Below are positions 45,249 through 51,956 of a stretch of DNA of 64,000 nt, one piece after another. Positions within the stretch are counted from its first letter, which is position 1. Every line of letters starts with the position of its first letter. A model generated the notes under the pieces. That model worked only from the letters and a program-made list of their open reading frames with translations. It had not been told where the DNA came from and searched no databases. Source of the DNA: Bdellovibrio sp. NC01 (GTDB lineage Bacteria > Bdellovibrionota > Bdellovibrionia > Bdellovibrionales > Bdellovibrionaceae); the NCBI RefSeq assembly GCF_006874625.1, contig NZ_CP030034.1, positions 248,001 to 312,000 of the forward strand, in the 5' to 3' direction. Made by a program: the position numbers and the translations under genes.

Positions 45249-45650
45249 ATGAAAGCTAAATTGCCTTTGATCGCGCGCATTCTTCTTGGTTTCGTTTTCT
45301 TTGCATCCGGTTTGTTTGGTTTGATTCAATGGTTTCAAGGTTCGCCTATGCCAGAAGGATTGCCAGAATCGTTGGTGACTTTTAACAAGGGTCTTGAAGC
45401 GACAATCTACTTCATGCCGTTCTTGAAAATTACAGAGACTCTTTGTGGTTTGATGTTGTTGGCGGGAATGTGGGTGCCACTTGCTCTTGTTGTACTAGCG
45501 CCGATCTTGTTGAACATTTTGTTTGTTCACGCTTTCCTAGCTCCAAGTGGTTTGCCATTGGCGATCATCTTAGGTCTTTTGGAAGTGTACTTGGCGTTCT
45601 TCTCTGCTCCGTATTCACCGACTGTGAAACAGCTATTTAAGCGCAAGTAA
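45249..45650 (+). CDS. DoxX family membrane protein
   Basis: This 133-residue inner-membrane protein has four helices and the DoxX pattern LPLIARILLGFVFFASGLFGLI, FLKITETLCGLMLLAG and LEVYLAFF. Family members associate with redox or sulfur metabolism and detoxification, often without defined activity. AAGGAG precedes the ATG. Its 3' end overlaps the convergent DUF2938 gene by 18 nt. Confidence 0.85.
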   Translation: MKAKLPLIARILLGFVFFASGLFGLIQWFQGSPMPEGLPESLVTFNKGLEATIYFMPFLKITETLCGLMLLAGMWVPLALVVLAPILLNILFVHAFLAPSGLPLAIILGLLEVYLAFFSAPYSPTVKQLFKRK

Positions 45651-46139
45651 TAACAGCTTAGCCCCGATACCCAGAGCAACACCGAATCCCAAGTGATTTA
45701 AAAAACTACTGCGAAGAAGAGTGTTGTTCTGTGGTCCTTTGCTACCAAGCACGCCAAAGCCAAATGCTGGAAACATCCAGAACCACGGCAGCACATTCGT
45801 GAAAATCCCAAACGCTATTGCCCACAACATATTATCCAGCGGCATGTCCATCGCTACGCTTGTCACATAATACAAAAAGCTTAAACCAATCCCGATACCA
45901 TAATGAGCAAAGCAACCAATCGCCTTTTCGTGACGAAGGGGAGCAGCCTGTAAAATATTTTGATAACGGAACTGCCCGTGAAAGAAGCCACCGATCCAAC
46001 GACCAATTAAGGCGTAGCTTCCACCATTATGAATTCTCAATTTTTTGCCAAGAATGTTGCATAGATCCATGAAGGCCGTAGAGAAAATACCAAGAGCGAT
46101 GCACATTAAAACAACTTTAAAAACCAGCGAAATCTGCAT
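45633..46139 (-). CDS. DUF2938 family membrane protein
   Basis: This 168-residue inner-membrane protein has about four helices. It matches the DUF2938 pattern: STAFMDLCNIL, YALIGRWIGGFFHGQF, E..IG.FAHYGIGIGLSFLYYV, NVLPWFWMFPAFGFGVLGSKGP, LRSSFLNHLGFGVALG. The function of the family is unknown. It is transcribed from the region shared with the HTH/V4R-like regulator. Confidence 0.8.
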   Translation of the reverse strand: MQISLVFKVVLMCIALGIFSTAFMDLCNILGKKLRIHNGGSYALIGRWIGGFFHGQFRYQNILQAAPLRHEKAIGCFAHYGIGIGLSFLYYVTSVAMDMPLDNMLWAIAFGIFTNVLPWFWMFPAFGFGVLGSKGPQNNTLLRSSFLNHLGFGVALGIGAKLLLLALK

Positions 46140-46282: not shown

Positions 46283-47188
46283 ATGAACGGATTAAAAAAA
46301 GACTTCCATCAGTCGAATTACGCGATCTCTCCAGAGACCCTGGAAAGACTGCGCCTTACCAGCCACCTCAATGAGAGTGACTGGCAAGATCTATTGGGCG
46401 TGGGCTGGTGGGATTATAAAATGATTCGCTCGGGCCAAAGAAAATTGCCCGAAACTTCATTGATCAAACTTTCTGATCACTTTCAATACGATCCGCAATC
46501 ACTGATTTCGGGAAATATCGATTTCCATGACATTCAGATCAAAAACGAAATCAATCATTGGACGATGCCAGAAAGCTATTCTTATGCAGCCTATGGTCGC
46601 CGCCGTACAACAATCACAACATTTGAATATCTAGAGAAGTATCATGGCTGGCAGTTGCGCTATGATCTTTTAAAGCATTTGAATTTGAGTGAGTCGGTGA
46701 TGCGCGATCCATTTGCACCGATCAGTATGCGTATCATTACTGACGCCGCCGCTTACTTGGCGCAACGTCATTTCGGTCCTAAAGATTTTTTCGCAATGGG
46801 TATGTATTCGTTCGTTGGTAACGTAAATACAATTCTTGGCAAATTCTATGCGGGCTTAAGCAGTCCTAAAGAAATCCTTGAACACATGTGGGGCGATTGT
46901 TTGAAGTTCTATGAAAAGAACTGCATCTATCGTTTCTTGCGCTTGGATGACCAAGGTGGATTGCTTGAAGTGATTTCTGAACCATTGGTGGCAGAGGAAA
47001 TGCGTGTTGCCCATTTGGGGAACGAACACATCTGCCAACTCAAAGCAGGCATGATGGCATCCGCACCAATGTACTTGGGTCATTCGCAAGCACAAGTGAA
47101 AGAAAAGTGCTGCGTGCACAAAGGCGCGCCTTCGTGCATCTTTGAAATCACTTTTGCGCCGGCTCCAGATCTAGGCCGCCTTACGTAA
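46283..47188 (+). CDS. HTH regulator with V4R-like ligand-sensing domain
   Basis: The 301 residues begin with an XRE-like helix-turn-helix (about 25-75: WQDLLGVGWWDYKMIRSGQRKLPETSLIKLSDHF). A C-terminal domain of about 180 residues follows, whose closing segment CCVHKGAPSCIFEITF matches the C...G..C.F.I ending of V4R small-molecule-binding domains. The middle (LQRHFGPKDFFAMGMYSF-like region around 170-190) also fits that fold. It is probably a ligand-responsive regulator. It faces the GNAT-like gene tail to tail with an 18-nt overlap. The V4R call is by motif only. Confidence 0.6.
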   Translation: MNGLKKDFHQSNYAISPETLERLRLTSHLNESDWQDLLGVGWWDYKMIRSGQRKLPETSLIKLSDHFQYDPQSLISGNIDFHDIQIKNEINHWTMPESYSYAAYGRRRTTITTFEYLEKYHGWQLRYDLLKHLNLSESVMRDPFAPISMRIITDAAAYLAQRHFGPKDFFAMGMYSFVGNVNTILGKFYAGLSSPKEILEHMWGDCLKFYEKNCIYRFLRLDDQGGLLEVISEPLVAEEMRVAHLGNEHICQLKAGMMASAPMYLGHSQAQVKEKCCVHKGAPSCIFEITFAPAPDLGRLT

Positions 47189-47923
47189 TCTTTTAATATC
47201 TGTTTTTTCTACTAACGCACGACGATCCCACACGCTTTGCCATTTGCGTTCGGCAAGTGAAATCACGTTTTTATCGAATGACGAGTGCATGACCAGCACA
47301 GGCTCCTTCACTAAATGAGCAACTTCAATATTAGGCAAGACCTCGCCGTTAAGACTTAAAGGTTTATGGCCAATTTCTGCAAACAGCTTTTCCGTTTTAA
47401 AACGTAAAGTGCCGCCGATCACAATATCAGTCACATTTTGTTCGCGGTAAAGCAGGTGATAGAAAGCGACAAATGCATCTTTCAAATTGATGTGCGTGAG
47501 TGGACCTTTTTTAAAGGCTGGATCAGCGGTCCATGAACCTAGGTAAGCAAGTTTGCCACCCTCACGTTCACACTTACCGATAATGGTTTTTACAACTTCA
47601 GTGTGCTGTGGGGCTTTCGCATTTTGCACTAAGCTGAGCCCCGGAAAATTTTGATTGAACTGTTTGCATTGATCAAGAGTGATCGTTTTATAACCCATCA
47701 CCGGTTGCAGTTCGCCACTTTGATCAGGCAAACACAGCAACACATGAGTCGCAAAAAAGTCGCTCGTGTCGACAGGTAAAACACCTTTTGAATAACATGA
47801 ACCGTAACCGATTTTTTTAAGTTCTACCATTTTAGCAAAGGCATTTTGCACAGAAGGCTCGGCCCAATTCTCAAATGGAGATTCTAAAATCAAAAGCTGA
47901 AACTGATCTAAAACGTTCCCCAC
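47171..47923 (-). CDS. Possible GNAT/acyl-homoserine-lactone-synthase-fold protein
   Basis: The 250 residues have no signal peptide or membrane helix. Features such as FAKMVELKKIGYG..Y..G..PVDTSDFFATHVLLC, a strand-rich PVMGYKTITLDQC, and IVIGGTLRFKTEKLFAEIG loosely resemble the D..D...H.ll pattern and beta-sheet of LuxI-like/N-acyl amino acid synthases. I do not claim an enzyme activity. The GTG at 47923 has GAGGAG 9 nt upstream. The gene is divergent from the E1-like gene (141 nt apart), pointing to shared regulation. It may be a hypothetical protein unrelated to GNATs. Confidence 0.45.
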   Translation of the reverse strand: MGNVLDQFQLLILESPFENWAEPSVQNAFAKMVELKKIGYGSCYSKGVLPVDTSDFFATHVLLCLPDQSGELQPVMGYKTITLDQCKQFNQNFPGLSLVQNAKAPQHTEVVKTIIGKCEREGGKLAYLGSWTADPAFKKGPLTHINLKDAFVAFYHLLYREQNVTDIVIGGTLRFKTEKLFAEIGHKPLSLNGEVLPNIEVAHLVKEPVLVMHSSFDKNVISLAERKWQSVWDRRALVEKTDIKRLRKAA

Positions 47924-48064
47924 TGCTTAAACTCCTCGTTGATGTCTTCAATTGAAACAACCCAATTAAATTTCTTAGAATTCTTCGCGTTTATAGGCAG
48001 AATAATTTTTACCTAAGTATGGTGGATTTTGTTTAGGTTCAAAAGAAAAAAATGGAGTACGTAT

Positions 48065-48907
48065 ATGGATGAGTCATACCGCGAACGGTTCCTTCGCAGC
48101 ATTGGGATATTCTCTGAAGAGCAGCTTCATAAATTCAAATCAACAAAGATTGCCGTCGGCGGTTTAGGACTGGGCGGATCGATTTTTATTAACTTAGTGC
48201 GAATGGGATTTGAAAATTTCCACATCGCCGATCCAGACACGTTTGAAAGAACGAACATCAATCGTCAGCGTATGGCGAAAGAAACAACGATCGGAATGCG
48301 TAAGGATGAATGCTCTTTAGCGGAAGCAAAAGCAATCAATCCCGCAGTGAAGATTAAAACTTTCCCTGATGGCGTGAAGCCAGAAAATCTAAATGAATTT
48401 CTTGATGGCGTTGATTGGGTGGTCGACGTTGTCGATTTATTTGCGATGAATGACAAGCTGGCGCTGAATGTGGAAGCGCACAAGCGTGGCATCCCGGTGG
48501 CGTCATGTGCAACGCTTGGTTTTTCAGGATGCTGTGTTGTCTTTAATAAAAATACACCTTCATTTGCGCAGCTTACGGGGATTTCTCCGGAGCTTCCTTA
48601 TGAAGAAAATCTGTCGCGCTTCTTGCGCTTCATTTGTCCTGAAGTCCCTTCGTATATGTGGGGGCAATTGATTCATGCTATGGATCGTTCGGGTTACATT
48701 CCGTTTGTAACTCCGGGTGGTGAAAGTGCCGCGGCCACATGCGCTTCCGAGATCGCAAAAAATATCGTGGGACTTGGTAAACCAATCCATGCGCCACAAG
48801 GTATCTTTGTGGATCTTGCCAATGCGAAGACCGTAGTGTTCGAGGCTTCTTACAAAGCTCGACAATTAAATATCCCGGATCATTTAAGAAAGAAAAAAGC
48901 AGCATGA
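48065..48907 (+). CDS. E1-like ThiF/MoeB/HesA adenylating enzyme
   Basis: The 280 residues belong to the ubiquitin-activating-like superfamily. The nucleotide motif is GGLGLGGS (32-39), the ribose Asp D56 lies in IADPDTF, the NINRQR motif (64-69) supplies the active-site Arg, and D124 lies in VVDVVD. It lacks the CxxC pairs that bind structural zinc in MoeB/ThiF. Enzymes of this type adenylate the C-terminal carboxylate of a small protein or peptide. GGAG 7 nt upstream selects the ATG at 48065. Its stop overlaps the next gene (ATGA). No ubiquitin-like protein gene is visible nearby, so the substrate is unknown. Confidence 0.85.
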   Translation: MDESYRERFLRSIGIFSEEQLHKFKSTKIAVGGLGLGGSIFINLVRMGFENFHIADPDTFERTNINRQRMAKETTIGMRKDECSLAEAKAINPAVKIKTFPDGVKPENLNEFLDGVDWVVDVVDLFAMNDKLALNVEAHKRGIPVASCATLGFSGCCVVFNKNTPSFAQLTGISPELPYEENLSRFLRFICPEVPSYMWGQLIHAMDRSGYIPFVTPGGESAAATCASEIAKNIVGLGKPIHAPQGIFVDLANAKTVVFEASYKARQLNIPDHLRKKKAA

Positions 48908-49755
48908 ATTTACGACCACGCATCGTAGAAATCATAGATCCCATTTTGCAGTTAAAAGCAGGCAATCGGATTTTCACTTCTCTTGAGGGTGAAAATCCGG
49001 GTGGCTCTATGAAAGATCATATGGTGCGTGGTGAAATCGAAGAGCTGTTAAACACGGGCCGCTTACAAAAAGGCGGCGGTGTTGCTGAGGTCAGTGCTGG
49101 CAGTACGGCGGTGTCGCTTGCGCACTATTGTCAGCGTAATGATTTGCAGTGTGTGCTTTTTGTGCCGAACGGAATTTCGCCCGAGATCGTTGCGAACTTA
49201 CGACGCCAAGGGGCTACGGTTTATCAAGAAGAACTCGCGCAAATTTATCAGGTCTTCGATGTCTTTATGAAAAGTCATCCCGAACTCATTGCCTTTAATC
49301 AACTTTACGATGTTTCAAAGCGCCGTCATTACAACTCGTTTGGTTCACTTATTCAAAATGAGATTGGACCATTGGCAGCCGTCATCGGTGGAGTGGGCAC
49401 CGGGCATTCGTTATTAGGAATTTCAGAAGGCTGTGGCGCAGGTGTTCAAGCGATCAGCGCGGAGCCTGCCTCGTTTAAGGTATCGGGGGTTCGTAATGTG
49501 GCCATCGACCGATATGGTGATCAAGATTCATTAAATGCGCAAAGTTTCGATCAGAGATTCTTAATTACACCTGAAGAATTGACCGCGACTGAAAGTATCC
49601 TCACGTCCGTGGGTGAAATCCAAATTGGGGCCTCTTTTTCTCTCGTTTTGGCTGCTGCCAGAGCGTATTTTAAGGGAAAGACCCATCAAAAAATCTTTGC
49701 AATTAGCGCCTCTGGCAAGCTATTAGCGGCTGGCAGATCTCAAAAGGCTGCCTAG
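48904..49755 (+). CDS. Cysteine-synthase-like PLP-dependent enzyme
   Basis: This 283-residue fold-type II PLP enzyme is coupled to the E1-like gene by a 4-nt overlap. K37 in NPGGSMKDHM is the PLP Lys. EVSAGSTAVSLA (62-73) replaces the usual T-S-G-N-T-G substrate loop, so the asparagine loop of true cysteine synthases is altered to Ser-Ala-Gly-Ser-Thr. GGVGTGHSLLG binds the cofactor phosphate. The enzyme may make cysteine from a sulfur donor other than sulfide, or act on another amino acid. It is slightly shorter than CysK (about 310 residues). Confidence 0.82.
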   Translation: MNLRPRIVEIIDPILQLKAGNRIFTSLEGENPGGSMKDHMVRGEIEELLNTGRLQKGGGVAEVSAGSTAVSLAHYCQRNDLQCVLFVPNGISPEIVANLRRQGATVYQEELAQIYQVFDVFMKSHPELIAFNQLYDVSKRRHYNSFGSLIQNEIGPLAAVIGGVGTGHSLLGISEGCGAGVQAISAEPASFKVSGVRNVAIDRYGDQDSLNAQSFDQRFLITPEELTATESILTSVGEIQIGASFSLVLAAARAYFKGKTHQKIFAISASGKLLAAGRSQKAA

Positions 49756-49865
49756 AGTCGTTTCTAGGTACGTCTTACAGAAGTATAAAAATTCTATAAC
49801 CAATTAATTGTTTGAGAGCCCTTGGAAAACTATAGTAAAAAGCTCGTATAAATCTAAGGATGTCG

Positions 49866-51956
49866 ATGTCGGATGTAAAGCAGGCCTCATGCAGTCATGA
49901 TGAGATTTGGAAGGTAGCTTTTTTAAGCTCACCTCAGGCTATGCTTATAACGACTTCCGATGAACGCCTTGTCGATCTGAACCAAGCGGCCAAAGAACTT
50001 CTTAATCTTGAAAGTTACGATGCTTCAGCGCAAAAGCTGCAATGTATTCTGGCGCGCTTGCATGTGAACTTGCGTAAGGCGATTCGCTTGCAAAGAACTT
50101 CTGTAAAACTTGATGGCGGCGATTTCTTGGTGTTTCATCTACAGGACACGCGCGATCAAGTTTATTCACAACGTCTGCTTTCTTTTTTCGCGACAACTTT
50201 AAAAGCTCTAGATCATCTTGATGTCGAAACAAGTTGTGCGGATATCCTTGAACAATCAGCTCGTATTGCTCTGACGGATATTTGTGACTGGTGTCGTATT
50301 GATCTTCGCTCTGATTTGAATTTAGGTCGCGGTACTTACGCGCACAAAACGGCAGCGCTAGAAAATCTATTAGGCGAATTGCACGCATTGGAATTTGAAA
50401 ATGCGGATGCCTCTTTAAGTCCGGTGAAGGTCATTCGTTCTGGTATTTCTGTTTTTAAAGAAAATGTTTCTGAAGAATTACTGCAAGTATTGGCAAGTTC
50501 GCCGCGCACATTCGCATTGTTGCAACACGTTGGTTTAAGCTCTTACATTTGCGTGCCCGTTAAAAAGGGTAATGACACTGTCGGCAGTATGACCTTCGCT
50601 CGCATCACGGGTTCGCAAGACTTTGATGCGATTGATTTGATGATGGCTGAAGAGTTCGCAGGTAAAGTGGCCGTTAGCATTGAACGTGCGCTGCTTTATA
50701 AAAACTTGGCCGAGATGAAAAATGCTGCAGAGTCAGCGAATCGTGCGAAAACAAATTTCTTAGCGAACGTCAGCCATGAAATTCGCACACCACTTGGTGC
50801 GATCCTTGGCTTTTCTGAATTGCTGGCATCGGCTTCGCCTTCTTTGAAGGATCGTACCGATTGGGGCAACAAGATTCGCAACAACAGCGGTCATCTTTCC
50901 CGCATCATCAACGATATCTTGGATCTTTCAAAGGTCGAAGTCGGTCGTTTAGATCTTGAAGTGAAGAAGATCGATTTTAGAAATCTTCTGAATGATATTT
51001 ACGGATTTGCTCGTAGCCGTGTCGGTGATAAAAACATTGATTTGCAATTCATTGTTGAAGGTCGCTTACCGCGCTTCATTCACACAGATGAAACGCGTTT
51101 GTCGCAAGTTCTTTCGAATATCATCGGCAACGCGATTAAATTTACGAATCAAGGCTATGTCCGAGTGAAAATTGGCAACCTTGATTATGTAAATGCTTCT
51201 GACAGAAAATTCTTTACGCATGAGCAGCGCATTTTCTTTGAAGTGACTGACTCGGGAATCGGTGTTGGTAAAGCGGAAGCTTCACTTTTATTCCAACCGT
51301 TCAGTCAGGCGGATTCATCGCACACTCGTCAATTCGGGGGCACGGGCTTAGGCTTAGCACTTTCGCGCAATCTTGCGCGCGGTTTGGGCGGCGATATTGT
51401 GTTGAAAGAATCAGAAGTTGGCAAAGGTTCGACATTCTTGATTACGATCAATGCGGGGGACGTCAGCGAATTTGCGACGTTTAACGAAATCATCGCCACG
51501 GATGTTGAAGTAACACCAGTGCAACCGGAAGAAGACCAAACTCTTGTTCTAAATGGCAGACGTGTGCTGTTAGTTGAAGACTCTGTCGATATCAGCTTGT
51601 TAGTAAAACGTTTCCTTGAAGGGGCCGGCGCTTCGGTGGCTCTTGCTGATAATGGTGATGAAGGCGTCAAGGCTGCGCAGGCAGGAAGTTATGATGTTGT
51701 CCTGATGGACGTGCAGATGCCTGTGAAAGATGGTATCGAAGCGGCCCGAGAACTTCGTGATGGTGGCTATACAGGCTTGATCGTGGCCCTTACTGCCAAC
51801 GCCATGAAAGAGGAACGCGAACGCTGTCTTGAGGCGGGTTACGACGCTCATTTGAGCAAACCAATGCGACGTTATGATCTTATTCGCAACCTCTCAGATC
51901 TTATTAATCAAGCAGCGGGGCGCACTTCGCATTCGGGGTACTCTACGGTCAAGTAA
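49866..51956 (+). CDS. Soluble hybrid histidine kinase with GAF and receiver domains
   Basis: This kinase of about 696 residues has no membrane helix. A short PAS-like N-terminus (about 10-70) is followed by a GAF-type domain (about 110-270: LAEEFAGKVAVSIERALLYKNLAEM marks its end). Next come HisKA with H304 in NVSHEIRTPLG, HATPase with IIGNAIKFTNQG and GGTGLGLALSRN, and a receiver with D615 in MDVQMPVKDG. Numbering is from the ATG at 49866, chosen for AAGGA spacing; the ATG at 49860 is possible. It senses a cytosolic signal. The output regulator is unknown. It lies about 110 nt after the E1/PLP gene pair. Confidence 0.9.
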   Translation: MSDVKQASCSHDEIWKVAFLSSPQAMLITTSDERLVDLNQAAKELLNLESYDASAQKLQCILARLHVNLRKAIRLQRTSVKLDGGDFLVFHLQDTRDQVYSQRLLSFFATTLKALDHLDVETSCADILEQSARIALTDICDWCRIDLRSDLNLGRGTYAHKTAALENLLGELHALEFENADASLSPVKVIRSGISVFKENVSEELLQVLASSPRTFALLQHVGLSSYICVPVKKGNDTVGSMTFARITGSQDFDAIDLMMAEEFAGKVAVSIERALLYKNLAEMKNAAESANRAKTNFLANVSHEIRTPLGAILGFSELLASASPSLKDRTDWGNKIRNNSGHLSRIINDILDLSKVEVGRLDLEVKKIDFRNLLNDIYGFARSRVGDKNIDLQFIVEGRLPRFIHTDETRLSQVLSNIIGNAIKFTNQGYVRVKIGNLDYVNASDRKFFTHEQRIFFEVTDSGIGVGKAEASLLFQPFSQADSSHTRQFGGTGLGLALSRNLARGLGGDIVLKESEVGKGSTFLITINAGDVSEFATFNEIIATDVEVTPVQPEEDQTLVLNGRRVLLVEDSVDISLLVKRFLEGAGASVALADNGDEGVKAAQAGSYDVVLMDVQMPVKDGIEAARELRDGGYTGLIVALTANAMKEERERCLEAGYDAHLSKPMRRYDLIRNLSDLINQAAGRTSHSGYSTVK

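Follow-up and report, generated by a model that had tools for sequence, protein, structure and literature searches.

In a 64,000-nucleotide stretch of the Bdellovibrio sp. NC01 chromosome (C1:248001-312000 of the complete 3.98 Mb genome; the whole stretch is called the window here), five neighbouring genes probably form a luxI/luxR-like module that makes and senses a small molecule and is built from other protein families. They encode a regulator (REG), an acyltransferase-fold protein (GNAT), an E1/ThiF-like adenylyltransferase (E1), an enzyme dependent on pyridoxal 5'-phosphate (PLP) and a hybrid histidine kinase (HK) (Table 1). Comparison of loci across the phylum indicates that the GNAT-REG pair is the core of the block, and that E1, a methyltransferase, a hydrolase and the PLP enzyme are interchangeable tailoring parts. 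Sequence and predicted structure give good support to three points: the block forms a functional unit, GNAT is of the acyl-synthase type, and GNAT has a constant partner in REG. The GNAT-REG module may represent a new type of chemical signalling in bacteria, and no published description of the pair was found in a literature search made mostly without subscription papers.

A GNAT profile was built from the window and related loci and searched in 369 Bdellovibrionota genomes, 88 of which carried the family. The neighbourhood set comprised 69 loci with 70 GNATs. A REG-family gene was found nearby on the same stretch for 65 of these 70 proteins. Relative to the nearest REG, 55 of the 70 GNAT genes were convergent, 51 lay within 60 bp and 42 overlapped it, and many loci held two tandem REGs. 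Among 60 relatives, the REG family was present in 0-2 full-length copies per genome, and a full-length REG occurred in all 11 genomes with GNAT versus 2 of the 49 without it (p 2e-10). One of these two GNAT-less cases is a fragment at a contig end (L178:1-541, G007:C206), whose partner may sit on another contig. The two families also diverged together, with a Mantel r of 0.80 (null maximum 0.20) for the whole set and 0.67 (null maximum 0.30) for the window-type clade; shared descent explains part of this agreement between the trees. In a metagenome-assembled genome, Bdellovibrio sp. LF-bin-439, two GNAT-REG pairs of different types lie side by side, and a single E1, one kinase and one hydrolase accompany them (L061:1-8155). 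These two pairs have diverged, and each groups with its own type.

The five open reading frames were confirmed at or near the positions given in an earlier note on this DNA, which had read them as a unit that makes and senses a modified amino acid or peptide product. The arrangement it had described also held. E1 and the PLP gene overlap by 4 bp, REG and GNAT are convergent with 3' ends overlapping by 18 bp, and a GAF-containing kinase follows. The intergenic gaps of the block measure 141, 104 and 143 bp, that of 141 bp lying between the divergent GNAT and E1 genes. The likely start of E1 is ATG 48065, as judged from its homologues and from an upstream stop in genome G014. Synteny was not broken in relatives: the order and orientation REG-GNAT-E1-PLP-HK were kept in three other Bdellovibrio genomes (G022, G011 and G014; loci L040, L041 and L042), where none of 9 other tested window genes accompanies the block. 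Such an arrangement is far beyond chance, because four species share one gene order between different flanks and the REG family has so few full-length copies per genome. Reduced blocks were found in two further genera, without the PLP enzyme in G024 (L043) and without HK in G025 (L044). In the 60-genome sample, window-type GNAT and close E1 occur in an identical set of 6 genomes. Named relatives of the block bear the labels Bdellovibrionaceae, Bdellovibrio, Bacteriovorax and Bdellovibrionia.

One chromosomal site offers a natural series. In G022 and G011 an FKBP gene stands on one side of the full block and an outer-membrane-protein-like gene on the other. The site is empty in G010 (C4:683107-684399), where these two genes are 9 bp apart, and in G021 (L177:7684-10773) the equivalent flanks hold REG and HK alone. 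When G021 is aligned with L040, the match breaks off where REG ends and resumes just beyond the end of the PLP gene, so that GNAT, E1 and the PLP gene are cleanly and jointly missing. Both remaining genes are open frames, the G021 REG being 293 aa long. The ratio of nonsynonymous to synonymous substitution rates (dN/dS) of HK between G021 and G022 was 0.05; none was computed for REG because its synonymous sites are saturated. Loss of GNAT-E1-PLP in G021 is the natural reading, and a gain in two steps is possible instead. The gene content of G021 separates a making unit (GNAT, E1 and PLP) from a sensing unit (REG and HK), and the locus may be likened to a LuxR solo (PMC10134790). The make-and-sense proposal of the earlier note gains from this relative, which would have lost only the putative biosynthetic genes. 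The centre of the proposed unit, however, is the GNAT-REG pair rather than E1 and the PLP enzyme.

The window GNAT gave no convincing Pfam or NCBIfam match, and a PDB sequence search with the GNAT profile returned nothing significant. A model predicted from 6 natural sequences (predicted local distance difference test score, pLDDT, 85.7; predicted template modelling score, pTM, 0.85) pointed to the fold of the acyl-homoserine lactone (AHL) synthases and FeeM. This agrees with the resemblance to a LuxI/GNAT-fold synthase noticed earlier, and the protein was not assigned to an unrelated housekeeping family. The top 8 PDB entries in the structural comparison were RpaI, BjaI (four times), FeeM, LasI and MesI (Z 16.0-14.0, with 175-194 residues aligned). 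RpaI ranked first (Z 16.0, 3.2 A, 194 residues), and BjaI (15.7), FeeM (14.7), LasI (14.2) and MesI (14.0) scored close to it; RpaI, BjaI and MesI are synthases of the CoA type. TofI came next (13.9), level with two ordinary GNATs; GCN5-type GNATs were at about 12.6, and the AHL synthases with EsaI included extended down to 12.8. The plain Foldseek list discriminated less well, placing FeeM sixth and mixing AHL synthases with generic GNATs. The most conserved polar residues are K36, D52, D55 and H60, and D55 is present in 70/70 homologues. We take the D-x-x-D spacing to be reminiscent of LuxI. No relatives of GNAT were found among the viral contigs or plasmids searched. A scan of 84,980 species genomes gave GNAT matches in Bdellovibrionota only, with two peptide patterns that fit window-type GNAT alone, so that absence elsewhere is not established.

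REG appears from its model (pLDDT 77.4) to be a one-component sensor, with a helical helix-turn-helix (HTH) domain at the N-terminus and a ligand domain of the V4R/H-NOX type at the C-terminus. The V4R-like end proposed earlier is in agreement with this predicted fold. Pfam V4R matched 7 of 12 REG homologues (best 2.4e-5) and stayed below cut-off for the window REG (E 0.009). HTH_19 matched three homologues, HTH_31 and HTH_3 also appeared among them, and LuxR domains did not. A PDB sequence search with the REG profile gave no significant match. In structural comparison, the C-terminal domain matched H-NOX proteins (Z about 13, best 13.8), VirS (11.6), palmitate-bound TRAPP Bet3 (10.4) and PoxR (10.0); homology of V4R and Bet3 has been published (PMC2253512). 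Since the fold resembles H-NOX, V4R and palmitate-bound Bet3, the domain could plausibly hold an acyl or aromatic ligand in a pocket. A heme or nitric oxide sensor was also considered, and was rejected because the H-NOX heme motif YxSxR is lacking (present in just 3 of 108 REG sequences). REG shares its ligand-domain fold with PoxR/DmpR, MsvR, H-NOX and TRAPP Bet3, and differs from V4R/H-NOX sensors by its XRE-like N-terminal HTH, the missing heme motif and its near-constant GNAT partner.

E1 matched Pfam ThiF (PF00899, 2.7e-33). Among NCBIfam models, PRK08223 (8.1e-50) and PRK14851 (4.2e-38) scored far above MoeB/ThiF. The adenylation residues are intact (R23, GxGxxG, D68, N76, R79, Q80, K92 and D136) and invariant or nearly so across 40 homologues. 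As earlier stated for the window E1, the zinc cysteines are missing: no CxxC pair was found in it or in the other GNAT-linked E1s. The E1 tree has three lineages, and the window E1 is closest to E1s beside FeeM-type acyltransferases or flavin oxidases. Of the 70 GNATs, 33 have an E1 at the same locus, and E1 seems to have been recruited to GNAT loci more than once.

The intact adenylation site and E1 fold would also suit an E1-driven protein- or peptide-modifier system, which we consider extremely improbable. No open reading frame fit for a ubiquitin-like carrier was present in the gaps of the block, as the earlier note had seen, the CxxC pair is absent, and a methyltransferase replaces E1 in about half of the loci. 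The modifier reading was dropped because of the missing carrier and the replaceable E1. The peptide side of the product claim remained without support, and the product is more likely to be an N-acyl amino acid.

The exchange of E1 was seen across the loci. Among the 69, 31 had E1 only, 30 had methyltransferase only, 1 had both and 7 had neither, giving 32 loci with E1 and 31 with a class I methyltransferase (Pfam Methyltransf_25, 8e-24). At least 5 switches between the two are required on the GNAT tree. The methyltransferase variant of the module occurs in L062, L063, L106, L109, L112 and 26 other loci, mostly of one family of the phylum (f12). Alpha/beta hydrolases of two families accompany loci of both types, and one acyl-CoA dehydrogenase family was found near four loci (L062, L105, L106 and L145). 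E1 and the methyltransferase could have one and the same carboxylate as their target. On a parsimonious reading, each would cap an N-acyl amino acid at this group, E1 by activating it for ring closure and the methyltransferase by methylating it, to give a neutral molecule.

The PLP enzyme, which has a PLP domain of fold-type II (Pfam PALP PF00291, 1.6e-21), was present in 7 of 69 loci and adjoined E1 every time. It keeps the PLP lysine (SMKD, K37). Its substrate loop is SAGSTA, in line with the altered loop reported earlier, where CysK has TSGNTG; K37 and SAGSTA are conserved in five homologues. No NCBIfam equivalog or CysK cut-off was reached (scores did not exceed 62 bits, and the cut-offs are 344 or higher). 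Most likely the enzyme makes or alters the amino-acid part. The tyz genes of Mycobacterium tuberculosis are likewise flanked by cysK1 and cysE (PMC10404671), which may be coincidence. HK contains PAS_8, GAF, HisKA, HATPase_c and Response_reg domains and holds the matching position in three Bdellovibrio genomes. A kinase is adjacent at 30 of 69 loci; we did not use this as an argument because kinases are common.

The nearest characterised chemistry comes from pairs of an acyltransferase and a ThiF-type enzyme, which produce acyl-oxazolones (PMC10404671; PMC12856293); N-acyl dehydrotyrosines are accompanied by related clusters (PMC12479983). The tyzACB, trzAS and oxzAB clusters of M. tuberculosis and Pseudoalteromonas combine an amino-acid N-acyltransferase with a ThiF-type E1, and the block has adjacent candidate genes for both types. 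The position of the window E1 in the tree, next to the FeeM- and oxidase-linked E1s, is a likeness. In contrast to these clusters, the block has a paired V4R regulator and a kinase, and its acyltransferase is from a different family. The nitroreductase-type flavin oxidase of tyz and oxz was not found by profile search in the block or in other GNAT-REG loci. By this analogy, an N-acyl amino acid is the likely product, with its carboxylate activated by E1 and possibly cyclised. GNAT, with its predicted fold, would take the acyl group of a thioester and attach it to an amino acid at the amino group, and the PLP enzyme would supply or modify the amino-acid part. E1 with ATP would then adenylate the free carboxylate of the N-acyl amino acid, as suggested by tyzB, oxzB and trzS. 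The adenylated product may close on itself as an oxazolone or lactone, or may be captured by a nucleophile. REG would bind the product in its V4R/H-NOX-type pocket and control transcription, and the PAS-GAF kinase may contribute a second input or output.

The same chemistry can be read as a natural-product or lipid pathway without any cell-to-cell signal, in which REG, as an intracellular regulator, would tune nothing but its own cluster, and the N-acyl amino acid or acyl-oxazolone would be a membrane lipid, a surfactant or an antimicrobial. This is the main rival, and we regard it as rather unlikely. The tyz, trz, oxz and stieleriacine products are of just such a kind, the biological role of oxazolones and of E1-type lipid chemistry in M. 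tuberculosis and others is unsolved (PMC12856293), and acyl-CoA dehydrogenase, methyltransferase and hydrolase neighbours suit a biosynthetic cluster. However, no tailoring enzyme accompanies GNAT as faithfully as REG does, the neighbour families of GNAT loci include no recurrent dedicated exporter, and REG and HK stay open where the biosynthetic genes are gone, which is odd for the regulator of its own cluster.

A second alternative is an intracellular metabolic sensor. GNAT would then be an acetyltransferase for an amino acid or amine, the pool would be monitored by REG together with the GAF kinase, and E1 would act on something unrelated, for instance a peptide or tRNA. The GNAT fold lies near ordinary acetyltransferases too (Z up to 13.9), and substrates of E1 enzymes are varied. 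This alternative is improbable, since AHL synthases and FeeM outrank the acetyltransferases, E1 was apparently drawn into GNAT loci more than once, and the TcdA and MoeB/ThiF profiles scored far below PRK08223 on E1.

Compared with luxI/luxR, the block likewise has adjacent synthase and receptor genes, with the synthase fold in GNAT. It differs in that PF00765 (LuxI) matched neither the window GNAT nor 12 aligned homologues, that REG has a V4R/H-NOX rather than a LuxR fold, and that tailoring enzymes are added. No PF00765 match over cut-off was found in the 60 relatives. No other single explanation would account as well as a cell-to-cell signal for the convergent pair, its co-divergence and the receptor-only relative. 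More tentatively, Bdellovibrionota may have a separate autoinducer class: an N-acyl amino acid with an E1-cyclised or methylated cap, made by a non-LuxI enzyme of the AHL-synthase fold, bound by a V4R/H-NOX-fold receptor and heard by receptor-only listeners.

Several points weigh against a signalling module. GNAT reaches neither the LuxI nor the FeeM Pfam cut-off; for FeeM (PF21926), 2 of 13 homologues touched the family (best E 0.076), and the window GNAT gave no match. The link to FeeM by profile is weak, as the profile of 70 GNAT homologues aligned with a same-phylum FeeM profile at a probability of 59.5 and E 9e-5 in a single comparison (hhalign), and a predicted fold alone says nothing of function. 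REG could be a plain pathway regulator. No operator or repeated palindrome was common to the three intergenic regions across species, and 19 of 24 Bdellovibrio genomes have no GNAT of the family. The exclusion between E1 and methyltransferase took the expected direction nearly always in independent pairs, and with about 5 events, too few for significance, the sign test gave p 0.125.

The Bdellovibrio quorum-sensing literature that we found deals with prey signals and not with a system of the predator's own. The GNAT-REG pair and the natural receptor-only and empty-site strains make signalling between these predators directly testable, with the G021 and G010 loci useful as natural test strains. 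If true, the proposal would give a regulatory context to E1-type lipid chemistry, and the V4R/H-NOX fold would join the possible receptors of acyl signals.

Table 1. Genes of the block and the neighbouring gene, in window positions
Feature	Proposed role or identity	Position	Strand	Details
REG	Regulator, proposed receptor	46283..47188	+	N-terminal HTH (~15-70), C-terminal V4R/H-NOX-fold domain (~103-295)
GNAT	Proposed signal synthase	47171..47923	-	AHL-synthase/FeeM-fold acyltransferase (predicted)
E1	E1/ThiF-like adenylyltransferase without zinc Cys	48065..48907	+	Pfam ThiF; frame extends to TTG 48029
PLP enzyme	PLP-dependent CysK-like enzyme, accessory	48904..49755	+	Pfam PALP; altered substrate loop
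HK	Hybrid histidine kinase (PAS-GAF), soluble, with a receiver domain; proposed second sensor or output	49860..51956	+	Pfam PAS_8, GAF, HisKA, HATPase_c, Response_reg
DUF2938	Membrane protein, doubtful member	45633..46139	-	Pfam DUF2938 6.9e-26; divergent from REG

FeeM and the stieleriacine and thalassotalic acid clusters resemble the block in the fold of their acyltransferase. GNAT is under the family cut-off, and the phylum has separate proteins that are true FeeM homologues and carry a PilZ-like domain. Two such FeeM-type acyltransferases, with the PilZ-like domain at the C-terminus, adjoin an E1 (L047:328-1713 and L048:8170-9492), and a weak nitroreductase match was seen in L047.

The window genome has a second E1 (G000:C1:3385412-3388380; L057:9412-12380), beside a nitroreductase-like protein without a Pfam match and a 367-aa GNAT (PF00583). 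This locus is arranged like tyzBC-tyzA and is a candidate acyl-oxazolone cluster without REG.

Relatives of the DUF2938 gene lie near REG at 3 of 69 loci, namely the window, L098 (10260-10727) and L101, and may be a target or a transporter. In L098 and L101 they are at most 5 kb from GNAT, and in L098, as in the window, the gene is divergent from REG.

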